Shown piece by piece: positions 1-56,968 of a DNA stretch of 64,000 nucleotides. Each line of letters opens with the position of its first letter. Positions within the stretch are counted from its first letter, which is position 1. Source of the stretch: Deuterostichococcus epilithicus (taxonomy: Eukaryota > Chlorophyta > Trebouxiophyceae > Prasiolales > Stichococcaceae); contig JAVTLE010000008.1 of assembly GCA_033439295.1 (NCBI GenBank), positions 2,356,001 to 2,420,000 on the forward strand. Reading direction: 5' to 3'. Both the position numbers and the translations under genes were made by a program. The notes under the pieces were generated by a model. The model saw only the letters and a program-made list of their open reading frames with translations. It searched no databases and had not been told where the DNA came from.

Positions 1-3000
1 CCCGGTCATCCAGGCGCCTGGCTGCCTCAGCTCCGCAAGAACCTTCTCACCACGCTGCGACATCGTGGCAAACATGACAAGGGAGTGGCACAGCGGGGCG
101 GGCATCAGCAGTGCGCTTGTCGTCAAGGGAGGACAGCTGCTGCAGGCGGCGGCACAGATCGAACGCGCCACCCCATCCCATTACATTGCGTCACCCCATC
201 CCAGACGCTTGGAGGCAAGGGCTTCGACAGGGATGCATGCGCAGCAGCAGCGGCAGCGCTTACTTGTCGTCGAAGGCGGACAGCTGCTGCAGCAGGTGGC
301 GCAGCTCGTCCTCGCCCAGCTGCTGGCTCAGGAAGGACATCGCTGTCGCCAGCTCCTCCTTGCTGATCTGGAGGGTGGCACAGGGCAGCAATGAAATCCA
401 GGTGTCCCGGGGAGGCTTGGTGGAGCGGGAATTGCGGCCTGCTGTCTGAGGAGCGACATTGCCATCGCCAGCTACATTCTGCTGATCCGCAGTCAGCAAA
501 TGAAGGGGTTTACAGGTGTGAGGCTGTGTGCACAGCTGTGTGTTGCAGCCTGCAGCTGCTGACTCGGAGAAGGACTCGCCATTGCCGCTCCTCCTGGCAG
601 CCTGGGTGGCAGTTAACTGTGAAGCCATTGAGTCAATTGGCCACTTGTAGGCTGTTCCGGCTGCCCCATTGAGTGAAAACAGGTGAGATGAATCTTGGTC
701 CGCTTGAAGCAACAGGCCATCGTTGTCCAGGCCAGCGGGTGCACGGCCTCCGTGAAATTGGGCGCCAAGATTGGTGGAGCCTCGGAACAGAATGATTCGG
801 GTCACACACAGTGTCGGGAAGCACCATCAAGCAAGCTCGGTTGCCGCACCAGGCCGTCACTGTCCCAAACCACAGCACATGCAGGGGTCCGCCGGCGCGG
901 CAGCAGACCAGAGCCTTTCTGCAAAAGATATATCCCCCAGCAACACAGCGGTCGTTCGTCCTCAACAACAACAACAAAGGTACGCACCAGGCCATCGTTG
1001 TCCAGGTCTAGCACGTGCATGGACTCGCCGATGCGGCTGTCCACCTCGTCGAGCTCGCCCTCCAGGCGCGCCAGGATGTTGGACACGTTGTCGGACAGCC
1101 GCTTGGCGCCCACTACCTCCTGTAGCTCCCCTGGGCGCTCCACCTGCGGCGCACCAGGGGGCGTCATGCTGCCGGCCGGGACGAGGAGACTGATCCAGCA
1201 GCGCTTGCCGTGCAGAGCTAGGGTGTCAACGACGTTGGCACACGTCCGCGTGGCGCCCACGATCGCATGCAGGGCCCCGGTCCACCAGCGCCGCTGCTGC
1301 CGCCGCATCGGCCAGGACAACGGCAGATTGCGGTCCTGGGTGTCGACTAGTGCTGCGCATGGCACAGGCCAGCTGGCGCGGAGCTTGCAAGACCGTTTGA
1401 GCTCTCGCACGGGCGAGGCCCGCAACACACCCGTGCCGCAGCGCCACCTGCGGGGTCGCCTCGCAGAGGGCGCGGCGCTAGCGGCGGGCAGAGGCCGGTG
1501 GCACTGGGTACGTCGTGGGGCAGCTCTCGGCTTACAATTCTCGCAGAGACAGAGGGCGGCCGCACCGAGACGCCGCCGCGCTGGAAGGTCATGGAACTTG
1601 AGCGCCCCGCCAGCTGCTTATTGACCCTGTCAATCTCGCCGCGTACCTGCACGGAGCATCTCCTGTGTGTTTGGCACCTCTCGGCAGCTTCAGGCCTGCA
1701 CACCTGGCGGTCAGTCCTGTGCAAGCAGCGAGCACTGGGCCGACGGCAGGCAGGGGGCTGGTGCGGCCACACAAACACAACACATGCTGGTCTGTTGCCA
1801 TCGCACCAGCTCCAGGAAGGCCTGGCGCTCGGCCGTCACGCCGGAGCTGCTGGCGAGGACGCCCAGCGCCCGCAGCACGCTCTGCATGCGCGCCTCCCGC
1901 TTGGCCGCGCTCTTGGCCGCTTTCTCCTCCTGGCTCTCCCCCTGCGCGCAAGAGGACAGTTCAAAATGTCGAGAGAACATGTGTCTGACTGTAAGGAAAC
2001 CCCTGAATGTGTGTTGCCCTCTCCTCCTGGCTCGCACCCTGCCGCCACAAAAGGCTGGCGTCATATCTGTCTTCAAGTACTGCCCTAGCCATGAGTCAAG
2101 TCTCGGTGGCTCTACGCGACCGCCATTGCGGCAGCGGCACCTGTTCCGCGAGTCCCTCGATTTAAGGTAAGCGGATGAGTGCAGACTGGTCTCCCTGTGC
2201 GTGTTTCTTTACTGTGCTCCTGACGCCCCTCGCGACAGGTACTCACCTGCAGCGACTCCACGACGGCGGTGGCGGCGGCCTCGCGCATGACCGCTGTCGC
2301 GGCGGCAGCCGCCGCCAGCTCGGGCGCCGAGTCGCGCGCCGGCAGGGAGTGCCCCTCCGGCTGCTGCACCGCTTCCTGTGCTTCCGCTCCTTCCTCCCGG
2401 ATGAGCTCCTCCTCTCGCTTGAGCTGCTCCAGCTTCTTCTCGTACTGCTTTGCCAGGTCGCTGCGGGTAGGATCAAGGGAATGTTCAGCACTTTTTGCGC
2501 CAGGCTTGCCGATAATGAAAAGCTACCCCGTTGTTCGCTGCGGCTGCTCCAGCTTTTGCCGCTCACCGCCGCAACAGGTTGCTGCGGGGAAGGGAAAGAA
2601 GGAGGGTCGAGGCCGTCAGCACGGACTCGGCAACCGCAAGCCAGCAGCTGCCGCGGTGCGCAGGGGCGCTGTTGCTCCAGGGTGGGTGCATGTGGAGATG
2701 CAGAGTGCGGCCAGCCTCTCACAGGCTCCGCCAGGAGCGCCGAGGGCCACAGCAGCAGCAGCAGTCGCAGTGCGGGGACAGCACTGCATCGAACACACAT
2801 GCGACACTCGGCCGAGCGAACAGCGGGCATTGGCCTACAGCAGCCGGCACCAGCCCAGAATCGCTGCGAGGAACCAGCAGTGCTCTTCACTCGTTGAGCG
2901 TGCTACCTTCTCTGACGGCGAATGCGTCCAGGGAGGCCCAAAGCGGCAAGTGTGAGGGACCTGTCTACAGCGATGTTGGGCACAGCCGGCCGGGTTGGAG

Positions 3001-55500: not shown

Positions 55501-56968
55501 GTCGCCCTGTGGTTGCCAGACCGCAACCTTGAGCTGCATTGTGGTCGAGCCGCGGCCTGAGGGACGAGCGGCCAGCCGGGCCACTGAGTAAAGTTTTTGT
55601 AGATGAGCCAGGCACGAGCAGATGTTCGGACTGCAAACTGCAGGTTCTGGCCCACGCAGAGGCACTGCCGCAACTTCGTTTTGGAGCCAGCTCGTCCTCG
55701 ACAGCTGCCGTACCTGCGCTGCGCCCCTGTCCGGCCTGGCATCTGCCTCGACACCCGCTGTTGACACCTACCCGGGGCCAGCCCTATAAGCATGTCGCAG
55801 CCTGCTGCAAGAGGCACCAGTACCGATCCAAGTCGTGGCCAGAGGCGGTCAGGGTCCAGGATTCTACCCACCTGCAGCGCGGCAAGGAACGCCACCTCCA
55901 GCTGCTGCGGCTCGCGTTCAGCGGCGGACATCGCCTGCTCCGCCGCCAGCCGCCGCAGGCGCTGCTGCTGCAGCGCCGTGGCGCCCTGCTCGCACAGCGG
56001 GACAGGCCCATCACACCCAGTCCCCCGTGCGTGCATGGGGCATCGTCCCGGCGTGTGGCGTGCAAGCGGTGCGCTGTTTTGCACGTGTGTTCCGCCGGCG
56101 CCAACTCCGAGCCCGTGGGGAGCATGACAGGCACCAGAGTGCGGACTCTGGTGCGTGGCTGCCGAGCTGCGCATGGGAACTACAACAGGCACCAGAGTAT
56201 GGACTCTGGTGCATGGCTGCCGAGCTAAGGCGGTGGGACTTCAAACGTTTCATCAGGCCGGATGAGTCTCGAGACTCCGTACAGCACCTGAGGAAGGTGC
56301 GACAGCAGCTCCGAGGCAGCGGCGAGGACGAGGGCATTGCGCGCCGCCCGCCCTGGCACGCCCGCCTCGTTGTCATTCAGCTGCGGGTCCTGTGACAGGC
56401 AGAGCCCGGCTTGTTCCCCTTCTGCAGCTGGCCTCGAGATTCGAGCAGGGTGGGAGCCTCCCACAGGTCGCACCATGCATGCTGGGGTGGTGGGTGATCA
56501 CAGCGGCAGGAACGAGTGGCGTCAGTGTGGGACAGGCGCCGGTGCAGCTGTTGTCGCAAAGAGGCCCGTGGTCAGGACAGGGTGCGATGCCAGGCACTCG
56601 CCAGGCCGAGCGGGCACCTGCGCTGACAGGAGGGCAGCAAGGCTGGCCGGCAGGCCGCCCCAGTCGGCGCGCAGCAGCTGCTCCCGGACCAGCGCCTCCA
56701 GGTTGGCCAGGTGCTGCTGCCGCACCTGCGGGAAGCACGCACAGCAGACGTCGCAGAGTGCCAGCTGCGACGCGGCAGACGAGGACGGCACACACCGATG
56801 GGCACGGCAGGCATCGCCAGAGTGCGGCCTGGAGGACAGCGGCGGCGGAATGTGTGCATGTTACCCAGCCGGGACACCCCGCTGAAGCTCCTGGACACGC
56901 TGAGGTTTGCGTATTGTACCCGTGAGAAGCCGACGGCGTCCCACGCCTGACGGCGACGCTGGTCCCAT
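52600..56968 (-). CDS. Large helical-repeat-like protein, function not recognised (possibly TAF1A-like); ends approximate
   Basis: A series of well-spliced, Ala/Leu-rich helical exons on one strand: about 56968-56870 (SRVQYANLSVSRSFSGVSRL), 56730-56560 (QQHLANLEALVREQLLRADW), 56400-56290 (AARNALVLAAASELLSHLPQ), 56000-55875 (LRRLAAEQAMSAAEREPQQL), 55540-55380 (GDTDRAYDLLSAAPAAQHER), 55040-54895 (AAQQLYGDAVPPGGLYAHDE), 54510-54285 (LPTWLLFQLLAAGGRAADAT), 54130-53930 (LRCDPASGDALAALGGAYGA), 53734-53600 (LPGMPLQGPEEDFAAAWALL) and 53280-52980 (ARRWWWPDVFFAPAAADAAF, LADEVRDLVW). The pattern of short helix pairs is TPR-like. The early ADWGGLPASLAALLSA and the late WWWPDVFF faintly recall the RNA polymerase I factor TAF1A. 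That is a guess. The 3' end below about 52980 is not fixed. Confidence 0.55.
54570..54622 (-). repeat. Echo of helical-protein exon 5' end (original about 54455-54505)
   Basis: The exon start encoding EAVTLRPGAPLPT recurs 117 bp upstream as EAVSLPPSAPLPT, with acceptor. Confidence 0.85.
55088..55142 (-). repeat. Echo of helical-protein exon segment (copy of about 54974-55028)
   Basis: About 55 bp, offset 114 bp, lying on the 5' side of the exon that encodes QLYGDAVPPGGLYAH. Confidence 0.75.
56128..56227. repeat. Two-copy tandem repeat with internal inverted repeat
   Basis: A unit of about 58 bp occurs twice in the intron. Each unit contains GCACCAGAGT facing ACTCTGGTGC, able to form a hairpin. 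The copies differ at a few positions. Confidence 0.8.

Follow-up and report, generated by a model that had tools for sequence, protein, structure and literature searches.

Exon-like copies in neighbouring introns have been catalogued as products of tandem exon duplication (PMC9013439, PMC12343006), and among 20 eukaryotes partial, inter-boundary and intronic matches were commoner than full-exon ones, according to the part of PMC12343006 consulted. A related pattern is described here from a 64,000-nucleotide stretch of the genome of the green alga Deuterostichococcus epilithicus (GenBank assembly GCA_033439295.1, contig JAVTLE010000008.1, positions 2,356,001 to 2,420,000; hereafter the window), in which decayed copies of exon ends, termed echoes, lie on the same strand in the adjoining intron. 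Like the catalogued duplications, the echoes are exon-like copies found by self-alignment. Unlike the whole exons or expressed copies of those catalogues, for which the consulted parts of PMC9013439 and PMC12343006 name no fixed spacing, the echoes are partial and decay neutrally. It is considered somewhat more probable than all other explanations together (probability about 0.57) that the echoes are the remnants of old tandem duplications, mostly of 85-185 bp, followed by neutral decay.

Natural insertions in rice were reportedly the subject of work by Vaughn and Bennetzen in 2014. In the consulted part of a review (PMC7407515), rice insertions of 10-1000 bp include tandem and nearby duplications. 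Fill-in by Pol alpha-primase at breaks yields small tandem duplications, and short (<100 bp) insertions occur at breaks with 3' overhangs, as described in the relevant part of PMC8355091. The echoes are like the error-prone-repair duplications presented in those parts of PMC7407515 and PMC8355091, being short copies of nearby DNA with no mobile element involved. They are unlike the <100 bp insertions of PMC8355091 in that the offsets in the alga are mostly 105-165 bp and the copies appear to be old and legible only through protection of the exon.

Duplications that were absorbed by splicing or that created introns have also been described, in a potato RNA-dependent RNA polymerase (RdRp) gene (PMC4974935) and in a review (PMC3443670), each consulted in part. 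The alga is similar to the potato case in that a duplication across an exon-intron structure would be absorbed by splicing, and the potato gene additionally has an 83-bp duplication internal to an intron. In contrast to what these excerpts report, no new intron was seen to be made in the alga; existing introns would lengthen instead. The sections consulted of Rogers and Bendich 2025 (PMC11782384) describe direct repeats of 4-30 bp shared by the two ends of an intron, which are interpreted there as scars of insertion; the alga also has direct repeats at intron borders, but these are copies of 20-94 bp of a single border at distances of 85-185 bp. Introners, as outlined in the part of PMC9860276 consulted, likewise changed intron content genome-wide, algae included, but introners are sequence families, and the spacers between the algal copies formed no such family in the 284 kb sampled here. 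In a literature search that had most subscription papers outside its reach, no report was found of genome-wide exon-border echoes at one narrow spacing. Intron lengthening by means other than transposon insertion is hard to trace, as neutral copies vanish fast; exon borders which keep the outer half of many duplications would provide a countable record with unit lengths and relative ages.

Copies of exon ends and their spacing

The sample of 284 kb comprised the window and 22 further stretches of 10 kb from the same genome (46.8 Mb in 21 contigs; G+C 60.7%), and the labels L008, L014, L021 and L023 each refer to one of these 10-kb stretches. Repeat pairs were defined as ungapped self-comparison segments scored +1/-1.25, and three dinucleotide-preserving shuffles served as the null. 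Gene models were predicted from sequence alone by an unsupervised two-strand hidden Markov model (HMM) gene finder trained on the 284 kb. It settled on the donor consensus CAG/GTGCG, with ~14% GC donors, and the acceptor consensus TGCAG/G, and yielded 614 predicted introns with a median length of 197.5 bp. Models were recovered for LETM1 (PF07766, 262.7 bits on the submitted part of 279 residues), DUF3611, Nudix, GH5, SRPK and NDUFAF7. The SRPK model of the window aligns to human SRPK1, and the NDUFAF7-like protein is nearest, among the 120 matches listed, to proteins of Trebouxia, Myrmecia, Micractinium, Chlorella and Coccomyxa (53-55% identity). An array in L023 beyond position 8000 (18 of the 127 pairs given below), a coding repeat in L014 at 8900-9200 (3 pairs) and a long terminal repeat (LTR) element at 35500-42000 of the window were dropped before most pair statistics. 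The LTR element was masked in the analyses of the 284 kb, except for the total of 135 pairs at a score of at least 14.

In the window, 45 segments with a score of at least 17 were found at offsets of 20-1499 bp, 24 of them at 100-199 bp and 2 beyond 300 bp; the shuffles gave none. The 22 independent stretches held 34 segments with a score of at least 20 at offsets of 100-199 bp (5 in the L023 intergenic array) and 36 below 100 bp. Over the 284 kb, 127 direct pairs scored at least 17 at offsets of 40-399 bp, compared with 0 in three shuffles, and 106 were left when the L023 and L014 arrays were set aside. Inverted pairs at this score numbered 20, of which 16 were in L023. The copies are thus in direct orientation and close together, as tandem duplications are. 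The central claim of the original prediction, that the adjoining intron holds degenerate copies of exon ends on the same strand, was confirmed both in the window and in the 22 independent stretches. The L023 array itself (8294-8936) is intergenic, with units about 76 bp apart and both direct and inverted copies.

Offsets of 85-185 bp accounted for 67 pairs (29 in the window, 38 elsewhere), spread over 17 of the 23 sequences. The median offset of the 62 pairs that were not mainly intergenic was 124.5 bp (quartiles 116-146). Reduction to 73 non-redundant clusters gave 10, 9, 17, 13, 12, 6 and 6 clusters in the bins 60-84, 85-104, 105-124, 125-144, 145-164, 165-184 and 185-260 bp, with 42 of the 73 at 105-164 bp. 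The lengths of the predicted introns formed one broad hump only, and no periodicity at 125 bp was seen. Sixteen offsets had been measured previously; 13 of them recurred exactly (110, 112, 114, 116, 116, 117, 123, 125, 129, 137, 140, 147 and 148), and the other three differed by 1 bp from a pair found here (87 from 86/88, 120 from 119/121 and 138 from 137).

The terminal 40 bp of exons were aligned to at most 300 bp of the adjoining intron with a score threshold of at least 14, as a form of the exon-edge self-alignment that had been proposed for this prediction, with antisense and side controls. Exon 5' ends matched the upstream intron in 21/485 cases, compared with 0/485 in antisense, 2/482 on the wrong side (downstream intron) and 0/485 in the intron of another gene. 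Exon 3' ends matched the downstream intron in 13/482 cases, compared with 0/482 in antisense, 0/485 on the wrong side (upstream intron) and 0/482 in another intron, and the mid-exon controls gave 1/195 and 0/184. The controls thus establish a genuine bias in both side and strand. The counts are minimum values, since in 26 of the 67 pairs the gene finder assigned exon status to at least part of each copy. The same 26 pairs are a warning for annotation, as the gene finder thereby added peptides which homologues lack. The splice-site geometry that had been described as consistent was upheld as a bias in side and strand, but not for every pair, as one pair of the window (263-316 and 116-169) is located at a stop codon and not at a splice site.

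Among the 13 window genes predicted to have four or more exons, seven carried a pair with a score of at least 17 at offsets of 80-189 bp, namely LETM1, SRPK, the NDUFAF7-like gene, the 28-kb locus, Nudix, the DUF3611 protein and the helical protein. For the genes with at least four exons in the 284 kb, the corresponding figures were 26/72 at this score and 39/72 at a score of at least 14, a threshold at which 135 real pairs were found at these offsets against a null of 3 per 284 kb. The statement that almost every ordinary gene contains echoes was thus too strong. The mannanase had wrongly been included among the echo genes, its model (22085-25970) being without a pair at a score of at least 14 in the same offset range. 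What it does contain is an exact 33-bp tandem at an exon border (25113-25179; 34/34 at offset 33). Hydrolases A-C had been reported to be free of echoes, and the three hydrolase models indeed had no pair at a score of at least 17 and offsets of 80-189 bp. No pair at a score of 17 was found in the genes at 6.4-8.1 kb and 58.5-63 kb of the window.

Neutral decay of the intronic copies

In 29 acceptor-side intronic echoes, the mismatch at codon positions 1-3 was 0.173, 0.199 and 0.245, and the changed codons comprised 44 synonymous changes, 113 nonsynonymous changes and 5 stops, the neutral fractions being 0.282, 0.689 and 0.029. Eight donor-side echoes had mismatches of 0.175, 0.143 and 0.289, with 15 synonymous changes, 30 nonsynonymous changes and 0 stops. 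Among echoes that were not called exon, AG was retained in 9/18 and GT/GC in 2/5, where neutral decay expects about 0.60. The earlier statement that the copies carry the AG or GT with them did not hold beyond this level. As both the codon changes and the splice dinucleotides fit neutrality, the intronic echoes decay without coding constraint and are not exons in waiting.

Comparison with homologous proteins indicated which copy is used. Three echo-derived segments of the SRPK gene model correspond to gaps of 11, 21 and 18 residues in the alignment with SRPK1. When the NDUFAF7-like protein was compared with nine algal relatives, the echo segments 17328-17369 and 20015-20048 were 11-column gaps in 9/9, and the regions of two more echoes were partly gapped. 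Because these echo segments are gaps in the homologues, it is the exon-proximal copy that encodes protein in those cases.

These observations bear on the possibility that the echoes are alternative or regulatory exons under selection. The 26 pairs with both copies called at least partly exon would be in agreement with this explanation. So would the 24 pairs that are mainly exonic on both sides (mismatch 0.164, 0.185 and 0.250; 52 synonymous changes, 93 nonsynonymous changes and 0 stops), which are slightly more synonymous than neutral, though exon calling itself excludes stops. However, neither the codon positions nor the proportions of synonymous changes, nonsynonymous changes and stops depart from neutrality in the intronic acceptor-side echoes, splice dinucleotides are not retained above the neutral level, and the three SRPK and two NDUFAF7 segments are missing from SRPK1 and from all nine algal relatives, respectively. 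An explanation by selected exons is consequently very improbable. Copying of whole exons with both splice sites was not found in any of the 23 scored echoes, pairs exonic on both sides being excluded (0/23 cover 90% of the exon). In L021 (6884-7211), blocks at offsets of 182 and 155 between them include the two ends of a single predicted exon, a pattern such as duplication of an entire exon with a 27-bp length change would leave.

Proposed origin and age of the copies

If the echoes are remnants of tandem duplications, these duplications, with a median of about 125 bp, would have hit exon-intron borders and probably any other position too. A duplication across one border would be harmless if splicing kept the exon-proximal site, and the intron would grow by one unit. 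The outer copy and the intron parts would then drift neutrally, with purifying selection keeping the exon copy. Only the exon part up to the splice site would still be recognisable, because selection preserves the exon copy alone. The unit was presumably duplicated whole, by events which may be old and now rare, and error-prone repair or replication might be the cause at the DNA level. Tandem duplication spanning splice sites, as originally proposed, is thus retained as the best reading, by which introns would lengthen, but the targeting of splice sites is not needed for it and homology of the intron half was detected only in a minority of pairs.

The extent of similarity was examined on both sides of the border. 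In 41 acceptor-side rows, similarity extended 19-76 bp into the exon in all cases, and into the intron by no more than 17 bp in 37 and by 27-51 bp in four. At first sight, this sharp boundary argues against the idea that the entire 125-bp unit was duplicated. Anchored extension beyond the block in 62 pairs scored no better than in mispaired controls (P 0.64 to the left and 0.51 to the right), with 12/62 above the 95% null at one side or the other. When the intron parts were searched strictly for homology, z>2 was reached by 9/45 and z>3 by 3/45 pairs, where chance predicts 4.2% and 0.4%. Homology was clear for the SRPK pair at offset 137 (z 21.9), and an L021 block at offset 130 holds 51 intron bp, 36 of them matching, next to 40/43 exon bp. 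These two pairs indicate that at least some events duplicated intron along with exon. An apparent age trend in spacer homology (10/17 young pairs, 6/23 and 4/21 older pairs) was discarded, as exon continuation had been mixed with intron homology; strict intron-part homology showed no trend with block identity (3/20 at 0.83 or more, then 4/13 and 2/12). Gapped extension with loose gap costs was uninformative (null 99% quantile 19.7).

The main rival explanation starts from the same boundary. Error-prone break repair might have copied a border piece of 30-90 bp about 100 bp into the intron as a short, non-tandem templated insertion, the stretch between not being duplicated. Most pairs are indeed without homology outside the block, and intron-part homology is below what tandem duplication predicts; insertions in rice from DNA <200 bp from the break are also described in the part of PMC7407515 consulted. 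Such insertions, however, leave unexplained both the concentration of clusters at 105-164 bp and the intron homology of the SRPK pair at offset 137 and the L021 pair at offset 130, and they are judged an unlikely origin of the echoes.

Tandem duplications were simulated with the observed lengths at random gene-sparing positions, exon copies being protected during mutation and the same detection being applied. When ages were spread evenly from zero (six settings), the intron-side match at positions -30 to -13 was 0.44-0.67, compared with 0.29-0.31 observed, and block length had a 90th percentile of 116-147 bp, compared with 73 bp observed. In a random process of uniform age, intron-only and intergenic pairs made up a share of 0.48-0.50, compared with 8/67 observed (the 26 mixed pairs being counted as border). 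Ongoing tandem duplication of uniform age was ruled out by block length, identity and the intron-side profile. An age of 0.2-0.4 substitutions/site with an indel ratio of 0.2 gave a share of 0.15 (observed 8/67), a median identity of 0.80 (observed 0.80), a median block of 45 bp (observed 48) and an intron-side match beyond -19 of 0.24-0.33 (observed 0.25-0.31), with a similarity profile that drops at the junction in nearly the same way as in the data. Over eight aged settings, the share was 0.14-0.15 in two and 0.21-0.47 in the rest. Judged by these simulations, the splice-site geometry seems to reflect mainly what remains visible of old random duplications. Splice sites need not be targeted, because random aged duplications leave similar junction-bound remnants when only the exon copy is protected.

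Alternatively, copying or retention might depend on the splice sites themselves, for example if breaks or template switching occurred in connection with splicing or transcription. This would be favoured by the scarcity of intron-only and intergenic pairs relative to the random process of uniform age (8/67, or 3 by a strict count; P about 1e-9 at a share of 0.47), and by the excess of acceptor-side over donor-side echoes (25:8). However, old random duplications nearly match the share in the two settings mentioned, and the pair 116-169/263-316 spans a stop codon where there is no junction. A junction-targeted process is therefore regarded as improbable, more so than templated insertion.

Duplication appears to have slowed greatly over time. 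None of the 67 blocks covers 80% or more of its offset (maximum 0.72), as young full-length units would, only 3/67 pairs reach 95% identity, one of these with a block of at least 35 bp, and Tandem Repeats Finder (TRF) found no array with a period of 85-300, arrays being found only at periods of 62-82 within the range 40-300. The ongoing renewal of introns that had been suggested was accordingly not seen. A young tandem outside the main length class is present in L014 (9569-9732), where an 82-bp unit is duplicated in full with 95% identity in a predicted intron.

Several results weigh against an origin by random tandem duplication. The L021 match at offset 155, second strongest in z, was found to lie at the opposite end of the exon in question and not in the intron, and an L008 pair with 39/41 matches at offset 127 has no homology outside its block. 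Over six settings the simulations predicted intron-part homology at z>2 in 30-53% and z>3 in 20-44% of pairs, where 20% and 7% (3/45) were observed, and at positions -18 to -13 the fitted model gave 0.40, compared with 0.29 observed. A strict count lowers the 8 intron-only and intergenic pairs further: 3 intron-only pairs are inside echo arrays and 2/5 intergenic pairs touch gene ends, which leaves 3/67 (P=0.006 even at a share of 0.15). The acceptor-side excess of 25:8, the 26 mixed pairs aside (P=0.005), is not predicted by the random-duplication model. The age window and the indel ratio were picked to fit, and the rates of exon constraint were assumed. Multi-copy arrays showed no regular spacing; six hand-picked spacing pairs had suggested regularity (P 0.004), but with all nine the mean difference was 27.0 compared with 26.2 for random (P 0.57; median P 0.06), and regular spacing was rejected. 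Random old duplication is not the whole story, since it over-predicts intron homology and intron-only pairs and gives no acceptor excess. Intron turnover after the duplications could explain the weak intron homology and the few intron-only pairs, but would not account for the acceptor excess.

Two further origins were considered. According to the Rogers/Hellsten model, introns may arise when an exon piece bearing AGGT is duplicated in tandem. The duplicated sequences in the alga are indeed exon borders, and the donor CAG/GT and acceptor CAG/G consensus overlap. Donor-to-acceptor similarity at an offset equal to the intron length was nevertheless found (score at least 12) in 0/542 introns of 45-399 bp, compared with 0.3-2.3% at shifted control offsets; this model was rejected as almost certainly not applicable. 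An introner or other mobile element was also rejected, as the 62 spacers gave only 2 marginal inter-locus matches and no repeat family within the 284 kb.

A tentative extension of the tandem-duplication reading, which is considered doubtful, is that a past genome-wide wave of one narrow class (about 105-165 bp) supplied a sizeable part of the intron DNA and then largely stopped, with the exons as its fossil beds. Speculatively, this length class could be related to Okazaki fragments or nucleosomes, which are of similar scale. If the 59 border pairs, of which 33 are clear and 26 mixed, are divided by the simulated detection rate of 0.22-0.39, this would give roughly 150-250 border duplications and 360-590 duplications in all in about 277 kb, which might correspond to 16-26% of the sequence.

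Echoes at individual loci of the window

The LETM1-like gene model (260-6158, minus strand) has 16 predicted exons and 10 pairs with a score of at least 17. The kept copy of an exon start with its acceptor (3892-3976) matches an echo at 4032-4116 (64/85, offset 140) that the gene finder partly called as an extra exon. For an exon part at 5335-5377, self-comparison gave an echo at 5445-5487 (38/43, offset 110). The exon end that precedes the donor near 3362 (3361-3396) is followed by two successive echoes within 3112-3264 at offsets of 123 and 241, a 27-bp part matching 3238-3264 (26/27) and the whole matching 3120-3155 (32/36). The pair at the predicted coding end consists of the kept copy with the stop codon (263-316) and, by self-comparison, an echo beyond that codon (116-169; 43/54, offset 147).

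In the SRPK gene, also on the minus strand, the exon of the catalytic-loop region with its acceptor (12347-12418) aligns to SRPK1, and its echo at 12463-12534 (59/72, offset 116) is the 21-residue gap mentioned above. An exon start at 9891-9941 has two echoes within 10028-10181, the nearer at 10028-10078 (46/51, offset 137); the intron part of this unit is homologous too (37/45, offset 121), and the segment is the 18-residue gap. The two echoes within 13650-13785 derive from the exon end at 13809-13855, which matches 13653-13699 (43/47, offset 156), and are associated with the 11-residue gap.

The NDUFAF7-like gene is on the plus strand. The kept exon start at 17432-17473 matches the echo at 17328-17369 (31/42, offset 104), which is one of the two segments gapped in all nine relatives. 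Self-comparison paired 17515-17569, an exon end, with a second copy at 17640-17694 (46/55, offset 125), and either copy is possibly the used one. An exon start with its acceptor (17890-17942) has, again by self-comparison, an echo at 17761-17813 (44/53, offset 129). Three echoes of the exon part 19125-19177, starting at 18719, 18855 and 18984, lie within 18719-19009 (34/42, 34/47 and 22/26). The exon part 20127-20185 is echoed at 20011-20069 (47/59, offset 116), and the predicted exon within this echo (20015-20048) is the second gapped segment.

The kept copy of the Nudix exon (30759-30848, minus strand; model PF00293, 44.0 bits) contains a box which we take to match the Nudix motif. Its echo at 30907-30996 (75/90, offset 148) has two box residues changed, and its separate model scored 32.7 bits. 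Pairs with echoes identified by self-comparison were also found at three other loci. The exon end and donor of the DUF3611 protein (PF12263; formerly called TIC21-like) at 49709-49750 on the plus strand match 49821-49862 (35/42, offset 112). On the minus strand, an exon start of the helical protein (54462-54506) matches 54579-54623 (38/45, offset 117), and an exon end with its donor in the 28-kb locus (27985-28046) matches 27897-27958 (51/62, offset 88).

A run of similar hydrolase-like models sharing GNSRGGYS, without echoes at a score of at least 17 and offsets of 80-189 bp, occupies 32880-47039. The LTR retroelement is located at 35681-41827, with a long open frame (36957-41321) between two similar, LTR-looking frames (35681-36205 and 41249-41827), and is presumably of the Ty3/gypsy type, judging from its sequence features.

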